NCBI GenBank assembly: GCA_013153965.1
Contig: JAADDJ010000018.1
Location: 1 to 51,458 of the forward strand
Length of the DNA: 51,458 nucleotides
From: Thermotogae bacterium
GTDB taxonomy: Bacteria; Hydrothermota; Hydrothermia; LBFQ01
Direction of reading: 5' to 3'
Below the pieces are notes generated by a model. The model had not been told where the DNA came from. It was given only the letters and a program-made list of their open reading frames with translations, and did not search any database. Positions 4,144 through 51,297 of the stretch are shown piece after piece. The number at the start of each line of letters is the position of its first letter. The stretch's first letter is position 1. A program made the translations under genes and the position numbers.

Positions 4144-4910
4144 ATCTTCCCGGGGACTTTCTGACCCTCCTCCCCCCGCCGGTCGTTTGGGATGAGGGGA
4201 GGGTGCGCGAATATGTAGGCGAGGCGGAGGCTCTGGTATCCAACTTGGGCGGCGATGTGGCCGTGAATGTGCCGGAGGTCGTGAGGTTGAGCCGAAGGCC
4301 GAGGCCCTTCCCCTTCACGGAGAAGATGGACCTGCTGGAGTTCGGACGGCTCCTGAAGGGTAGGGGTCTGGACGTGTATCTTGATCGCCACTTCCCCCTC
4401 CTCCCGAAGGAGAAGACCTTAAGGTGGATGGAGGAGGCGAAGACCGTGGCCGATGGGGTAGTGGTCGTCGGCAGGATCCTCTCCGACTATCCCTATCCGG
4501 GGTACGACGTTGAGGAGGCCATATCCTTGGCCCGACGGATCTTCCCCCATGTGGGCGCCATCACGATAATAAACCGTCCGAACGAGGAGGTTCGCGCATG
4601 CTCAAAGGTGAGGGCGGGGGCGGATTTTCTAATATCGCAGATTACATTCATGCCCGAGGAGGTGGAGAGGTTCGTCATAAAGCTCAAGGGCGCGTGCGGC
4701 GGGAGTTTCCCGAGACTCTACGTCAGCGTGGCCCCGGTCTTCGGGGAGGAGGAGCTTCAACTCCTGCGATGGATGGAGGTACCCATCCCCAGGCGTATCC
4801 CACCTCTAAAAGCCTTGGCCGAGAGGATGAGGGAGATACCCGGCGTGGCCGGCATAAACTACGAGCATCTAAGATATTCCAACGTTGGAAGGCTCCTCGG
4901 AGGTCCTTAG
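4140..4910 (+). CDS. methylenetetrahydrofolate reductase-like (MetF-superfamily) protein, 256 aa
   Basis: The central part resembles the TIM barrel of MTHFR: a DYPYPGYDVEEAISLARRIF segment, followed by AGADFLISQITF and a downstream PVF. In the family these correspond to the repository strand and the GADFxxTQxxF motif. Family members reduce 5,10-methylene-THF with FAD; whether this short version (usual length about 290) still does so is uncertain, as the N-terminal flavin-binding residues are not clear. The start is GTG 4140, overlapping the previous stop in a GTGA. The 3' end overlaps the convergent Rrf2 gene by 42 bases. Confidence 0.5.
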   Translation: MNLPGDFLTLLPPPVVWDEGRVREYVGEAEALVSNLGGDVAVNVPEVVRLSRRPRPFPFTEKMDLLEFGRLLKGRGLDVYLDRHFPLLPKEKTLRWMEEAKTVADGVVVVGRILSDYPYPGYDVEEAISLARRIFPHVGAITIINRPNEEVRACSKVRAGADFLISQITFMPEEVERFVIKLKGACGGSFPRLYVSVAPVFGEEELQLLRWMEVPIPRRIPPLKALAERMREIPGVAGINYEHLRYSNVGRLLGGP

Positions 4911-5321
4911 ATTGGCCTCCTCAATTATCCCCTCTATGGTGATGTCCGAGAGGATGTCCGTTATCCTCTCCTGAACCTTGTTCCAGACCCCTCGGAGTAT
5001 GCAATCGGAGACGGGTATGTAGCACTCCACGTGCTCCCCCGGGACCAGACACCTCACCAATCCGTACTTGCCCTCAACCGCCTCTATCACGTCCAGAACG
5101 GTTATGCTCTCGGGAGGCTTGGCCAGAACGTATCCTCCCTTCTTCCCCCGTATGCTATTGACGAGACCCGCCCGGCGCAGTCGTACCAGTATCTGCTCCA
5201 AGAAGTTTATGGGGATCTTCTCCAACGAACTTATCTGGGGGACGCTCATGGGAGATTCGGCCAACGCCAAACGGACGAGGGCCTTTATGGCGTATTCAAC
5301 CCGAAGCGTGAATTTTAACAA
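4869..5321 (-). CDS. Rrf2/IscR-type transcriptional regulator, 150 aa
   Basis: A winged helix-turn-helix regulator of the Rrf2 family. The N-terminus LKFTLRVEYAIKALVRLA matches the family start, residues 26-60 form the HTH and wing (QISSLEKIPINFLEQILVRL, RGKKGGYVLAK), and residues 74-83 match the LDVIEAVEG linker. Cys91, Cys100 and Cys107 correspond in number and order to the three [2Fe-2S] ligands of IscR, with slightly wider spacing, so it probably senses Fe-S or cysteine status. The start must be TTG 5321, because the next ATG would remove the first helix. That TTG lies 2 bases after the 3' end of tRNA-Cys on the same strand, with no room for a promoter or a Shine-Dalgarno. Confidence 0.88.
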   Translation of the reverse strand: MLKFTLRVEYAIKALVRLALAESPMSVPQISSLEKIPINFLEQILVRLRRAGLVNSIRGKKGGYVLAKPPESITVLDVIEAVEGKYGLVRCLVPGEHVECYIPVSDCILRGVWNKVQERITDILSDITIEGIIEEANLRTSEEPSNVGIS

Positions 5322-5323
5322 AG

Positions 5324-5397
5324 AGGTGGCGCCGGGATTTGAACCCGGGAATAGCGGATTTGCAATCCGCCGCCTTAGACCGCTTGGCTACGCCACC
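5324..5397 (-). tRNA. tRNA-Cys (GCA)
   Basis: A 74-base cloverleaf: acceptor GGTGGCG / CGCCACC, anticodon stem GCGGA / TCCGC with loop TTGCAAA (anticodon GCA), T-arm CCGGG TTCAAAT CCCGG. The discriminator is U73, the usual identity base of tRNA-Cys. CCA is not encoded. The Rrf2 regulator starts 2 bases after the mature 3' end. Confidence 0.97.
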
Positions 5398-40176: not shown

Positions 40177-40698
40177 TCAAACCGAAGTGCCACCCCTCAT
40201 GGCGAGGCCTATGGCCAACTTTGAGCGGCTCTCAACCCGGAAGCCACCGCCTCGGAGGATGCTCGCCGCTCGCTCAACGACCTCTCCATCCCCCTCAACC
40301 TCCAAGAAGGTCATCTGGGTTGAGTCGTCGTACCACACCACGTCGTAGGTGAGTTTGAGGTTCTCTCCCCCGTACGTCCTGCGCATCACCATGAGCTCAA
40401 GGAGGGGGGCGACGCATCGTGTCTCCGAGGCCATCTCCTCACGCGATACCTCCCTCTCGCATTCCCTGCGCCGCACCACCCCACCTTCGGAGGATATGTC
40501 CCGCTTGTAGGTGCGCACTATGCGACCCCCGGGATATATGCGGAAGCGCAGGGCGCCACCGTCCCCCGGGTCGTAGTACCTGTCGGTGTAGCGCTCCTCA
40601 CCCTCGTACCGCAGACTGAAACCCTCCCTCCTTAGAAGCTCCAGAGCCCTCCTAAGATCCTCCTCGCCGCCTACGACGAACTTGGCCTCAATCTCCAT
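40177..40698 (-). CDS. CYTH-domain protein (triphosphate tunnel / class IV adenylate cyclase-like), 173 aa
   Basis: The N-terminus MEIEAKFVV carries the ExExK signature of the CYTH superfamily. It is followed by alternating charged strands (TDRYYDPGDGGALRFRIYPGGRIVRTYKRD, KLTYDVVWYDD, FLEVEGDGE) that form the triphosphate tunnel. Members hydrolyse triphosphates such as thiamine triphosphate or make cAMP; which applies here is unknown. The start is ATG 40698, with GGAGGT 8 bases upstream. It overlaps the end of the MBL-fold gene by 11 bases. An earlier in-frame start at 40737 would add 13 residues before the ExExK motif and was rejected. Confidence 0.85.
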   Translation of the reverse strand: MEIEAKFVVGGEEDLRRALELLRREGFSLRYEGEERYTDRYYDPGDGGALRFRIYPGGRIVRTYKRDISSEGGVVRRRECEREVSREEMASETRCVAPLLELMVMRRTYGGENLKLTYDVVWYDDSTQMTFLEVEGDGEVVERAASILRGGGFRVESRSKLAIGLAMRGGTSV

Positions 40699-41515
40699 CC
40701 GGAGGGACCTCCATGAGGCGGTGCTTTCCCTTCTCATCCACGTACATCCGACCGGCGAAGGCCTCCCTGTCGTGGGGGGTGAATAGGATGGCCTCCTCCC
40801 TGATGAAGAGGTCGTACCAGTACTTGCGGGAGAATAGCATCTCCTCGGGATAAAGGTCGTAGCCCATCACGTAGGGTAGGGGGGAGTGGTGACGGGTGGG
40901 AAGGAGATCCCCGGTGAATACGAACAGACGGTCCGTGTCCCGTATCAGGACTATCTGATGGCCTCGGGTGTGTCCCCCGGTGCGATGCACGTATATGCCC
41001 GGCCATACCTCCCCGCTCCCGGATATGAGGCGCACGTTCCCCTCAAGGGCCCTAAGACGCTCCCTTACGTAGCTCGCCCGACTCCTCTCGTGGGGGAAGT
41101 GCGCGTCCGCCCACTCCATGGCCTGAACGACCACCGGAGCCCTGTACCTGAAGCGTCCGTCGGGGGTGGCCAACTCGCCCATGTGGTCAAAGTGCAGGTG
41201 GGTCTGAACTATCAGAGAGACCTCGTCCCGACCCACGGGGGCGTCGGCGAAGGGATCCTCCTCATGAACGTCGTATATCCTCTTGAACTTCTCATCCCAG
41301 CCGGTGCCGAGGCCACTCTCTATGAGGACCCAACCCCGCTCGGTCTTCACGAGGAGGGGATGGGTGGCCATGGGTATGCGATTCTGCTCGTCCGCCGGTA
41401 TGAGCCTGCTCCAGAGGACCTTGGGGACCACGCCGAACATGGCCCCACCGTCCAGAGCGAACTTCCCCGAATCCAGCTGGTAGATGGTTATCCTCCGGCC
41501 TCTGAAGATCCTCAT
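40688..41515 (-). CDS. metallo-beta-lactamase fold hydrolase (lactonase-like), 275 aa
   Basis: The MBL signature THLHFDHMG (HxHxDH) near residue 105 binds two metal ions. Further ligands are the His in TGGHTRGHQIVLI, the Asp in FTGDLLP, and His in LFTPHDREAFAG. The overall pattern is closest to the AttM/AiiA N-acyl-homoserine-lactonase branch, but the branch contains many other hydrolases, so the substrate is open. The start is ATG 41515, 7 bases after TAGAAT. It heads a two-gene operon with the CYTH gene. Confidence 0.87.
   Translation of the reverse strand: MRIFRGRRITIYQLDSGKFALDGGAMFGVVPKVLWSRLIPADEQNRIPMATHPLLVKTERGWVLIESGLGTGWDEKFKRIYDVHEEDPFADAPVGRDEVSLIVQTHLHFDHMGELATPDGRFRYRAPVVVQAMEWADAHFPHERSRASYVRERLRALEGNVRLISGSGEVWPGIYVHRTGGHTRGHQIVLIRDTDRLFVFTGDLLPTRHHSPLPYVMGYDLYPEEMLFSRKYWYDLFIREEAILFTPHDREAFAGRMYVDEKGKHRLMEVPPDGD
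40707..40712 (-). promoter_or_regulatory. Shine-Dalgarno GGAGGT for CYTH gene
   Basis: GGAGGT on the minus strand lies 8 bases before ATG 40698 and decides that start over the one at 40737. Confidence 0.75.
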
Positions 41516-41536: not shown

Positions 41537-41842
41537 TCATAGGCGGAGCCTGTCCGCCCAACGGCCAACTATCGGCAGAGGCTCAACGTGGCCGCTCGCC
41601 GCCTTCACCATGCCGAATATGGTCAGATATATGAGGAATATGAGACCCACGGGGGCGAGCAGGGCCCATCCCACCAAGGGGACGAACCTCCAAACGAAGA
41701 GCCAGAGCAACCAGAGGGTTGATAGGACGAATCCCTGCCTTATGTGGAAGATGACGAACTTGTCCTTCGGCAAAAAGAGGATGAGGATGAAGAGGAAGGG
41801 GAGGTAGGCCATGGCCCCGAGGATGCGACTTCTCAAGCTCAA
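41537..41842 (-). CDS. small membrane protein, DUF4870-like, 101 aa
   Basis: Three hydrophobic helices (residues 9-24, 37-55, 58-78) and the segment FVIFHIRQGFVLSTLWLLW match the pattern of DUF4870/Tic20-like small membrane proteins. Their function is not known. The start is TTG 41842, overlapping the gatC stop by 4 bases (TTGA). A GGGAG 6 bases upstream serves as ribosome site, so it is co-translated with gatC. Confidence 0.72.
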   Translation of the reverse strand: MSLRSRILGAMAYLPFLFILILFLPKDKFVIFHIRQGFVLSTLWLLWLFVWRFVPLVGWALLAPVGLIFLIYLTIFGMVKAASGHVEPLPIVGRWADRLRL

Positions 41843-42099
41843 GTCTTTCTCCCTATGGGGGATATGAAGCGGATGAATCTGCCCTCCGTGTCCGGAGCGA
41901 GGGCGTAGATGTCCGGATAGGTGTCGCCCGGCTCATCCTCACGGAGGGGAGCGGCCCTCTCAACGACCGAGAGCATGGGCTCCACGTCGTCCGGAATACG
42001 AGACAGGATGGCTATGAAATCCAAAATCTTCAGGAGATCCTCCTCCATCTCGTCATCGGCCTCCACACGGGCAAGGGCGGCTATCCTGCTGACGTCCAA
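41839..42099 (-). CDS. gatC: Asp/Glu-tRNA amidotransferase subunit GatC, 86 aa
   Basis: GatC is the small scaffold of the GatCAB complex, which converts Glu-tRNA(Gln) to Gln-tRNA(Gln). Visible family features are DVSRIAALARVEADDEMEEDLLKILDFIAIL at the N-terminus, then VEPMLSV, PLREDEP, and a C-terminal APDTEGRFIRFISPIG. The start is TTG 42099, because the family match begins at the next codon and the sequence just before it is tRNA-Gln. The TTG follows the discriminator base of the tRNA with no base between. gatA and gatB are not in the window. Confidence 0.9.
   Translation of the reverse strand: MDVSRIAALARVEADDEMEEDLLKILDFIAILSRIPDDVEPMLSVVERAAPLREDEPGDTYPDIYALAPDTEGRFIRFISPIGRKT
41849..41853 (-). 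promoter_or_regulatory. Shine-Dalgarno GGGAG for DUF4870-like gene
   Basis: GGGAG on the minus strand lies 6 bases before TTG 41842, inside gatC, and supports the TTG as start. Confidence 0.65.
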
Positions 42100-42171
42100 C
42101 TGGGGCGGGAGGACTCGAACCTCCACTACCAGATCCAAAGTCTGGCGTGCTACCGATTACACCACGCCCCA
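42100..42171 (-). tRNA. tRNA-Gln (TTG)
   Basis: A 72-base cloverleaf: acceptor TGGGGCG / CGCCCCA, anticodon stem CCAGA / TCTGG with loop CTTTGGA (anticodon TTG), T-arm GGAGG TTCGAGT CCTCC, discriminator G73. It has the U1-A72 pair that bacterial GatCAB uses to recognise tRNA-Gln. CCA is not encoded. gatC begins at the base after G73. Confidence 0.97.
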
Positions 42172-42182
42172 GTGAGGAGGAA

Positions 42183-42188
42183 ATTATA
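42183..42188 (-). promoter_or_regulatory. -10 element TATAAT for tRNA-Gln and gatC
   Basis: TATAAT on the minus strand ends 11 bases before the mature tRNA 5' end. No other promoter precedes gatC, so the tRNA and gatC probably share it. Confidence 0.75.
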
Positions 42189-42212
42189 CGTCCGATTTAC
42201 GCTCGCCGCCTT

Positions 42213-42218
42213 TAGAAT
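42213..42218 (+). promoter_or_regulatory. -10 element TAGAAT for pdxS
   Basis: TAGAAT ends 5 bases before GTG 42224 and 11 bases before the alternative ATG 42230. It is divergent from the tRNA-Gln promoter 24 bases away. Confidence 0.65.
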
Positions 42219-42223
42219 ATCCC

Positions 42224-43111
42224 GTGAGTATGCTTAGGGGCACCTGGCGAGTAAAGGTCGGATTGGCACGCATGTTGAAGGGTGGGGTGATAATGGACGT
42301 CACCACTCCGGAGCAGGCGAAGATAGCGGAGGAGGCCGGTGCGGTGGCCGTGATGGCGCTGGAGAGGGTTCCGGCCGACATCCGCAAGCAGGGGGGAGTG
42401 GCCCGGATGGCCGACCCCGAGATAATCCTCCGCATTATGGACGCGGTGAGCATTCCGGTGATGGCGAAGGTGCGCATAGGACACTTCGTTGAGGCGCAGA
42501 TCCTTGAGGAGTTGGGCGTAGATTTCATTGACGAGAGCGAGGTCCTAACTCCGGCCGATGAGGAGAATCACATATACAAGCATCCCTTCGGTGTCCCCTT
42601 CGTGTGTGGCGCCAGGGATCTGGGGGAGGCCCTCCGTCGCATCGCCGAGGGGGCGGCGATGATCCGCACAAAGGGTGAGGCCGGGACCGGGAATGTGGTT
42701 GAGGCCGTCAGGCACATGCGCCGGATACAGCGCCAGATACGGGAGCTGACCACCAAGGACCCCGAGGAGCTATACACCGCGGCCAAGGAGTTGCGGGCCC
42801 CGTACGAGCTCGTCAAGTACGTGGCCGAGCATGGCCGCCTTCCCGTCCCCAACTTCGCCGCCGGAGGTATAGCCACGCCGGCCGACGCGGCCCTGATGAT
42901 GCAGCTGGGTGCGGAGGCGGTATTCGTGGGTAGCGGGATATTCAAGTCCTCGGACCCCAAGAGGATGGCGGCGGCCATAGTGGAGGCCGTGGCATACTAC
43001 GACAATCCCAAGGTTCTGGCCCGCATCTCCAGAGGTCTCGGCGAGCCCATGAGGGGTATAGACATTCACGAGCTCAACGAGGGAGAGCTCCTTCAGACCA
43101 GAGGATGGTGA
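42224..43111 (+). CDS. pdxS: pyridoxal 5'-phosphate synthase lyase subunit PdxS, 295 aa
   Basis: PdxS makes pyridoxal 5'-phosphate from ribose 5-phosphate, glyceraldehyde 3-phosphate and ammonia supplied by PdxT. Family motifs: [36 protein letters not shown] with the catalytic Asp, [16 protein letters not shown] with the Schiff-base lysine, [18 protein letters not shown] with the second lysine, and [19 protein letters not shown] with the phosphate site. Normal length. The glutaminase pdxT is not adjacent; ParA/ParB follow instead. The start is GTG 42224 or ATG 42230; the family tolerates either. Confidence 0.96.
43101..43104 (+). promoter_or_regulatory. Shine-Dalgarno GAGG for parA
   Basis: GAGG lies 6 bases before ATG 43111 and favours that start over the ATG at 43105. 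Confidence 0.55.
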
Positions 43112-49863: not shown

Positions 49864-51297
49864 ATGGTTAGGACGAGATTCGCCCCCTCTCCCACGGGGT
49901 ACCTGCACGTGGGGGGAGCGAGGACTGCAATCTTCAACTATCTGTACTCCCGCCACACTGGGGGGAAATTCCTCCTGAGGATAGAGGACACGGATCGCCA
50001 GCGCTTCCGTCCCGAGTGGGTTGATGCCATACTCAACGGTCTGAGGTGGCTGGGCTTGGATTGGGATGAGGATGTCGTGTTCCAGAGTCGGCGTTTGGAG
50101 CGCTACCGTGAGGTGGCGGAGGAGCTCATCCGGAGGGGTAAGGCCTACAGATGCTATTGCACCCCCGAGGAGTTGGAGGCGGAGAGGGAGGAGGCACGGC
50201 GCCGGGGAGTCCCCTACAGGTATTCCCGAAAGTGCCTCCATCTGACGGATGAGCAGCGCAGGAGGTACGAGGCGGAGGGTCGCAAGCCCTCCATAAGGTT
50301 CTACGTGCCCGACGATAGGGAGGTCGTATTTCGGGATCTCGTCCATGGGGAGATAACCTACAACACCAACGACCTTGGAGGGGACTTCATCATCGTCAGG
50401 TCCGACGGTTTCCCCACGTATAACTTCGCGGTCGTGGTTGATGACCACGATATGGGCATAACCCACGTGATACGCGGGGATGATCACATACCCAACACCC
50501 CCAAGCAGATTTTAATCTACGAGGCGATGGGATGGGAGGTGCCGCAGTTCGCCCATCTGCCCATGATACTCGGACCGGACCGCCAGAAGCTCTCCAAGAG
50601 GCACGGCTCAACGTCCCTTGAGGAGTTCAGACTTCAGGGGATACTTCCGGAGGCTCTCTTTAACTACCTGCTGCTGCTGGGGTGGTCGCCGGGCGATAAC
50701 CGGGAGATCATAAGTCGCGAGGAGGCCATACGTCTGTTTGACATAAGGGATGTTCATAAGTCGGCCGCCGTGTTTGACCACAACAAACTCCACTGGATGA
50801 ATTCGGAGTACATCCGCTCCTTGGACGACGAGGAGCTTGTGCGCAGGCTAAAGGAGTATAACGACTATCTGAAGAGGAAAGGTGAGGGCTACGACGTGTC
50901 CGACGAGCATCTGCGAACTTTGGTGAGGCTCTTCAAGGAGCGGGCGAAGACTCTGCGGGACTTCTTCACCTATGGGGTCTTCGTGTATAGAGAGGACTTC
51001 CCCTATGACCCGAAGGCTGTGAAGAAGCGCCTGAAGGACCCCAACATCTTCGCCTACCTTAGGGAGTTGGCTGACAGGTTTGAGGCTCTGGACGACTGGA
51101 GGGAGGAGAGGATAGAGGAGGTCCTACGCTCCTACGCCGATGAGCTGGGGGTCAAGCACGCCCTACTCATACACGCGACGCGTGTCGCCGTCTCCGGCAT
51201 GGCCGTGGGGCCGAGCCTGTTCTTCATGCTGGAGGTTTTGGGGAAGGATAGGGTGGTCCGTCGCCTGCGGGAGGTGGAGAGGAGGGCAACCCTGTAG
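49864..51297 (+). CDS. gltX: glutamyl-tRNA synthetase, 477 aa
   Basis: A class I synthetase. It starts VRTRFAPSPTGYLHVGGARTAIFNYLYSRH with the HIGH-type HVGG motif, then RIEDTDRQR and YNFAVVVDDHDMGITHVIRGDDH, with the KMSKS-type motif KLSKRHGSTSL near residue 245. An anticodon-binding helical domain follows. It charges tRNA-Glu. With GatC and a U1-A72 tRNA-Gln in the window it is probably the non-discriminating type that also mischarges tRNA-Gln, but this is an inference. The start is ATG 49864; the frame stays open upstream, but that region is antisense to the GH99-like gene. Confidence 0.96.
   Translation: MVRTRFAPSPTGYLHVGGARTAIFNYLYSRHTGGKFLLRIEDTDRQRFRPEWVDAILNGLRWLGLDWDEDVVFQSRRLERYREVAEELIRRGKAYRCYCTPEELEAEREEARRRGVPYRYSRKCLHLTDEQRRRYEAEGRKPSIRFYVPDDREVVFRDLVHGEITYNTNDLGGDFIIVRSDGFPTYNFAVVVDDHDMGITHVIRGDDHIPNTPKQILIYEAMGWEVPQFAHLPMILGPDRQKLSKRHGSTSLEEFRLQGILPEALFNYLLLLGWSPGDNREIISREEAIRLFDIRDVHKSAAVFDHNKLHWMNSEYIRSLDDEELVRRLKEYNDYLKRKGEGYDVSDEHLRTLVRLFKERAKTLRDFFTYGVFVYREDFPYDPKAVKKRLKDPNIFAYLRELADRFEALDDWREERIEEVLRSYADELGVKHALLIHATRVAVSGMAVGPSLFFMLEVLGKDRVVRRLREVERRATL

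Follow-up and report, generated by a model that had tools for sequence, protein, structure and literature searches.

tRNA genes joined to protein genes in an order of candidate division WOR-3: a probable tRNA-led route to leaderless gatC mRNA

In an order of candidate division WOR-3, about half of the tRNA genes are joined at their 3' end to a protein gene that follows immediately, and release of the tRNA is probably how these genes obtain a translatable message, much as in mitochondria. One such pair, tRNA-Gln(UUG) and gatC, lies in the window, i.e., the whole 51,458-nt stretch of DNA analyzed here. We observed the junction itself, its conservation, its TTG start codon, the absence of an SD sequence and of a separate promoter, and the recurrence of the arrangement across the genome; from these we infer co-transcription, cleavage, and leaderless initiation of gatC, a reading to which we assign a probability of about 0.68. 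Judged by sequence, the host is a member of candidate division WOR-3, as GTDB records with a related GatC are so named, one of them being filed under Thermotogota.

The tRNA-Gln/gatC junction

The locus comprises the following features:

42183 to 42188, minus strand: putative -10 box (TATAAT) of the tRNA-Gln/gatC transcript, read from the sequence, with TATAAT similarly placed in all seven genomes
42100 to 42171, minus strand: tRNA-Gln(UUG) with U1-A72 and G73 (Rfam RF00005, 69.4 bits; ARAGORN)
41839 to 42099, minus strand: gatC, 86 aa, TTG start (PF02686; TIGR00135; aligned with six relatives from residue 1)
41537 to 41842, minus strand: gene for a small membrane protein, 101 aa, overlapping the end of gatC

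Rfam RF00005 placed the tRNA at 42171-42100 (minus strand) with a U1-A72 pair and G73 as its last base, whereas ARAGORN placed it at 42172-42099 with anticodon TTG, each end being one base off. On the Rfam boundary, the spacer between tRNA-Gln(UUG) and gatC is 0 nt; the TTG at 42099-42097 adjoins G73 at 42100, and TTG GAC follows the discriminator directly without an encoded CCA. The ORF at 42099 matched PF02686 (GatC) with E=7.7e-11 and 42.5 bits (cut-off 23) and TIGR00135 (gatC) with E=4.9e-10 and 39.6 bits (cut-off 47.1), and this 86-aa ORF was the only GatC match in the genome. Residue 2 aligned with position 5 of the TIGR00135 model, indicating that no N-terminal part is missing. The zero gap, the TTG start, and the U1-A72 pair, all named in the first-pass annotation of this DNA, were borne out.

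The TATAAT at 42188-42183 leads us to expect transcription to start approximately 4-5 nt ahead of tRNA-Gln. Beside the tRNA, the divergent pdxS has TAGAAT at 42213-42218, followed by 5 nt and GTG at 42224, and the promoters of the two transcripts overlap within approximately 40 bp (42183-42224 of the window). The small membrane-protein gene (41537 to 41842) stays behind gatC across the genus; its 101-aa product had no match in Pfam. RNA folding of the junction gave no useful signal (z=-0.44), and the predicted minimum was not the cloverleaf.

Conservation of the junction

Besides this genome (G000), the comparison covered GatC loci of five congeneric species (G001-G005) and of one species from another genus of the same family (G006). 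In 6/6 relatives, tRNA-Gln(UUG) lay directly upstream of gatC; the gap was 0 nt in four of them and 1 nt in the other two, which answers the question of conservation that the first-pass annotation had posed. The junction varied only in G002 and G003, where a single T separates G73 from TTG. This extra T puts the tRNA and gatC out of frame, and an in-frame stop lies inside the tRNA; with the frame shifted and no start codon in the tRNA, TTG is the only possible upstream start, and a longer GatC is excluded in these two species. An N-terminal extension of GatC into the tRNA, which would have contradicted the proposed junction, was ruled out, as the frame varies among relatives.

The seven GatC proteins aligned from residue 1, with M1, D2, L9, and A10 invariant. 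The junction was kept in 7/7 family genomes although GatC identity falls to 35% and the upstream genes vary; among the ORFs compared, an upstream gene was held in common only between two near-identical species. TATAAT was present ahead of tRNA-Gln in 7/7 genomes. On this comparison, the junction is more than chance, being kept in all six relatives in which a family-level GatC was found. The GatC loci of three genomes from the second family of the order had no tRNA nearby, nor did those of eight class-level genomes.

tRNA-gene abutments across the genome

Rfam gave 46 tRNA matches in this genome, 41 of which had enough flanking sequence. Counting same-strand starts of ORFs of at least 50 aa, a protein gene began within 10 nt of the tRNA in 20/41 cases and within 3 nt in 12/41. 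As a control, ORFs diverging from the 5' side of the tRNA gave counts of 5/41 and 2/41, so a few of the twenty abutments may be chance. CCA was encoded in none of the tRNAs (0/41), in line with the first-pass annotation, and 35/41 tRNAs had a -10 box within 28 nt upstream.

Most of the downstream proteins could be recognized; they include MurA, NuoH, MnmA, L33, cytidylate kinase, L28, a DUF192 protein, a GIY-YIG protein, an Rrf2 regulator, PdxT, an aldo/keto reductase, PurB, Prs, a DUF4321 protein, and a MurI-like racemase just under its cut-off; MurA, MurI, and PurB belong to broader Pfam families, in which their sequences served to name them. The predicted N-terminus of several of these tRNA-led proteins is that of the family; in Prs, for example, the match to the N-terminal domain begins at residue 3 with profile position 1. 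The window holds a second such fusion, which is also present in G004 and G006:

5324 to 5397, minus strand: tRNA-Cys
4869 to 5321, minus strand: gene for an Rrf2-family regulator, with TTG 2 nt after tRNA-Cys (PF02082, E=7.5e-37)

TTG opened 9/12 of the closest tRNA-led genes as against 6/46 genes with an ordinary leaderless promoter (p=7e-5). Next to the discriminator, the sequence is nearly always C/T-T-T, which accounts for the TTG excess at tRNA ends, since TT followed by G makes a start codon. In some tRNA-led genes, namely purB, mnmA, the aldo/keto reductase gene, and others (e.g., L048, L024, L043, L054), a run of 6-9 T lies between the tRNA and ATG; these T-runs resemble those after tRNAs that have no close gene. 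Partial termination there could set the ratio of tRNA to mRNA.

The habit extends beyond this genome. A start lay within 10 nt of the tRNA in 21/47 cases in G004 (same genus) and in 16/34 in G009 (the other family of the order), and G006 had 22/41 tRNAs within 3 nt and 27/41 within 10 nt. In tRNA samples from four more distant WOR-3 genomes, the counts were 2/62 within 10 nt and 0/62 within 3 nt. The comparison of the order with the distant WOR-3 genomes at 3 nt (58/163 vs. 0/62) gave a Fisher p of 3e-10, a value to be read with the fact that tRNAs of related genomes are not independent of one another. The downstream gene was the same for 15 of the 20 pairs in G004 and for 13 in G006; one pair is counted although its gap is 11 nt, and nuoH is counted although it follows a different tRNA-Val isoacceptor. 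In G009, prs lies behind tRNA-Ala, not tRNA-Ser. This recurrence indicates that the habit is common to the order and that particular pairs are common to the family.

Start signals and leaderless translation

Start signals were checked in pairs with a gap of at most 3 nt in G000, G004, and G006 (47 listed, one of them with insufficient upstream sequence). Among the evaluable pairs, gatC included, none had an SD core in the 15 nt before the start, and none had a TAnnnT box 5-10 nt before it. A joint transcript, as the first-pass annotation had supposed, accordingly agrees with what is present (in each of the seven genomes, a TATAAT shortly before the tRNA) and what is absent (a promoter or SD before the TTG).

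In 146 kb of this genome, TA[TAG]AAT followed by 6-9 nt and a start codon led into an ORF of 100 aa or longer in 46/53 cases, against a background of 27% for any start-like triplet and with a sharp peak at the 6-9 nt spacing, indicating that the genome clearly uses leaderless mRNAs. Such promoters precede, for example, the divergent pdxS (GTG at 42224) and, at 49864, the GluRS gene. Promoters of this kind, with TAGAAT, TATAAT, or TAAAAT at 6-9 nt from an ATG, GTG, or TTG, are very common in this genome (both strands of the window; L020-L062), so that start calls based on SD will often be wrong. On leaderless mRNAs of the bacteria studied, a UUG start is uncommon, amounting to 3% in P. acnes (PMC3848588), which speaks against leaderless initiation of gatC.

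Processing enzymes

Both this genome and its relatives within the family have RNase P RNA, in fragmentary form in G001. In G004, rnpB adjoins tRNA-Lys(CUU) without a spacer (contig C55 72900-74300, L231), as it does tRNA-Leu(CAA) in G006 (contig C53 8000-9300, L232); an RNase P cut at the 5' end of that tRNA would also make the 3' end of RNase P's own RNA. In G000 and G002, what follows rnpB is a T-run instead of a tRNA.

RNase Z was not recognized in this assembly (approximately 90% complete, so that a gene may have been missed) with TIGR02651, TIGR02650, PF12706, or the RNase-Z-like protein of a relative; the PF12706 proteins that turned up resemble other kinds. Nor was it recognized in G002, and G003 and G005 had weak partial matches only. 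The RNase-Z-like protein is a metallo-beta-lactamase protein of approximately 231-236 aa that occurs in G006 (L192 1492-2187), G004 (L233), and G001 (L234), with a TIGR02651 match of E=1.4e-16, far under the cut-off, and the motif HPHGDHxLGLP; remote homologs were present in G008 and G010. The metallo-beta-lactamase protein downstream of the locus (40688-41515) was rejected as the tRNA 3' nuclease, since it resembles YtnP lactonase and is served by a leaderless promoter of its own. By inspection, the other metallo-beta-lactamase proteins of this genome resemble beta-CASP, glyoxalase-like, or UPF0173-like proteins rather than RNase Z. The earlier proposal of an RNase Z-type cut that frees the tRNA and a leaderless gatC mRNA together thus stands in part: the cut is retained as the probable reading of the junction, and the named enzyme is not recognized in this genome.

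Is the tRNA-Gln/gatC pairing functional?

No GlnRS was found over the curated cut-off in ten genomes, the match in this genome being the GluRS gene at 49864; tRNA-Gln would therefore depend on GatCAB, in agreement with the first-pass annotation. That dependence, together with the retention of the pair in 7/7 family genomes, is what could be said for selection for a matched supply of the tRNA and the enzyme that charges it, an idea that is compatible with tRNA-led leaderless expression of gatC. Yet gatB is found on a different contig, where it follows a ribD-like gene; a second tRNA-Gln(CUG) lies elsewhere and precedes the aldo/keto reductase gene; and no tRNA stands before gatC in the second family of the order. 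Moreover, twelve other pairs with no such logic are equally kept in the second genus, and with approximately 20 pairs and 1,500 genes, one functional match is, by rough estimate, a chance event of a few percent. We consider selection for matched supply doubtful. The functional match is probably mostly fortuitous and the pairing incidental, because nearly all of the approximately 20 abutments join functionally unrelated partners (murA, nuoH, purB, prs, rpmB); the functional pairing that had been proposed is weakened by the same fact. The fixed ratio proposed with it is likewise weakly supported, as the unlinked gatB and the second tRNA-Gln(CUG) fall outside the putative transcript of tRNA-Gln(UUG) and gatC.

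A model for gatC expression and its alternatives

We propose that one promoter, with its -10 box at 42188-42183, would drive a transcript from a few bases before tRNA-Gln through gatC and the small membrane-protein gene. RNase P would cut the 5' end of tRNA-Gln, and an endonuclease would cut its 3' side, either at the discriminator or very close to it. The downstream fragment would then have its 5' end at the UUG of gatC or a base or so before it, and would be translated as a leaderless mRNA, the tRNA gene serving as both promoter and processed leader. As the close starts have neither SD nor promoter and the genome uses leaderless mRNAs, a tRNA cut that leaves a leaderless gatC mRNA is the simplest account.

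The joint RNA might instead be translated uncut from the UUG behind the folded tRNA, which would be freed later by 3'-5' exonucleases removing the mRNA. The failure to recognize RNase Z in this genome would fit this course of events, as would the lack of an encoded CCA, which is therefore added afterwards in any case. However, no SD lies ahead of the start, the GC-rich acceptor stem, which ends immediately before the start codon, would be expected to impede binding of the 30S subunit, and mature tRNA would hinge on mRNA decay; we regard uncut translation as unlikely. A gatC transcript of its own, starting in or near the tRNA gene, would reduce the abutment to mere compactness. Leaderless promoters are indeed common in the genome, but the closest starts have no TAnnnT hexamer 5-10 nt before them and the conserved TATAAT sits upstream of the tRNA, which makes a separate gatC transcript very improbable.

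Discussion

We lean slightly towards a wider claim, namely that throughout a whole order of free-living bacteria tRNA 3' maturation is a general route to leaderless mRNAs, with up to half of the tRNA genes acting as promoter and processed leader. If so, the supply of cell-wall, respiratory, nucleotide, ribosomal, and tRNA-charging mRNAs would be tied to tRNA processing. If cleavage does take place, it would account for the expression of genes that have no promoter or ribosome-binding site of their own, and it would bind unrelated genes to tRNA maturation. The annotation of start sites in WOR-3 would also change, as UUG starts at tRNA ends are easily missed. The arrangement raises the question of which nuclease makes tRNA 3' ends in species without a recognizable RNase Z.

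tRNA punctuation is a known arrangement in mitochondria. There, too, tRNAs abut coding sequences with almost no spacer at many genes, and start codons are often non-AUG; in both systems, the message would begin leaderless at the tRNA 3' end. Mitochondrial punctuation works with few promoters and long polycistronic RNAs that are cut at the tRNAs, RNase Z cleavage behind a tRNA giving the mRNA its 5' end, whereas here 35/41 tRNAs have their own -10 box. The absence of tRNA punctuation in octocorals has been treated elsewhere (PMC5474008). In contrast to mitochondria, the tRNAs here are scattered singly over a 1.5 Mb bacterial genome, and the cleavage is putative. If it does occur, then tRNA punctuation, familiar as an economy of mitochondria, has arisen in bacteria as well, atop leaderless translation.

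In bacteria, operons of a tRNA and a protein gene are known, such as thrT-tufB of E. coli, in which one transcript is split by tRNA processing. The thrT-tufB mRNA retains a long leader with an SD, whereas here the gap is 0-3 nt, no SD is present, and the arrangement takes in a large part of the tRNA genes. Leaderless (TA-led) bacterial genes are also known, with a TA-like signal approximately 10 bp upstream of the start (PMC3160421). Like them, gatC and the other tRNA-led genes have no SD, and the start codon is expected at or beside the RNA 5' end; unlike them, they have no TA signal, and the 5' end would come from processing. In the open-access literature, we found no paper on a link between tRNA-Gln and gatC or on bacterial leaderless genes led by a tRNA, and no account of a bacterial lineage in which a large share of the tRNA genes directly adjoins coding sequences lacking both an SD and a promoter. 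Set beside mitochondrial punctuation, tRNA-mRNA operons, and TA-led genes, the tRNA-led arrangement is a new combination of known elements.
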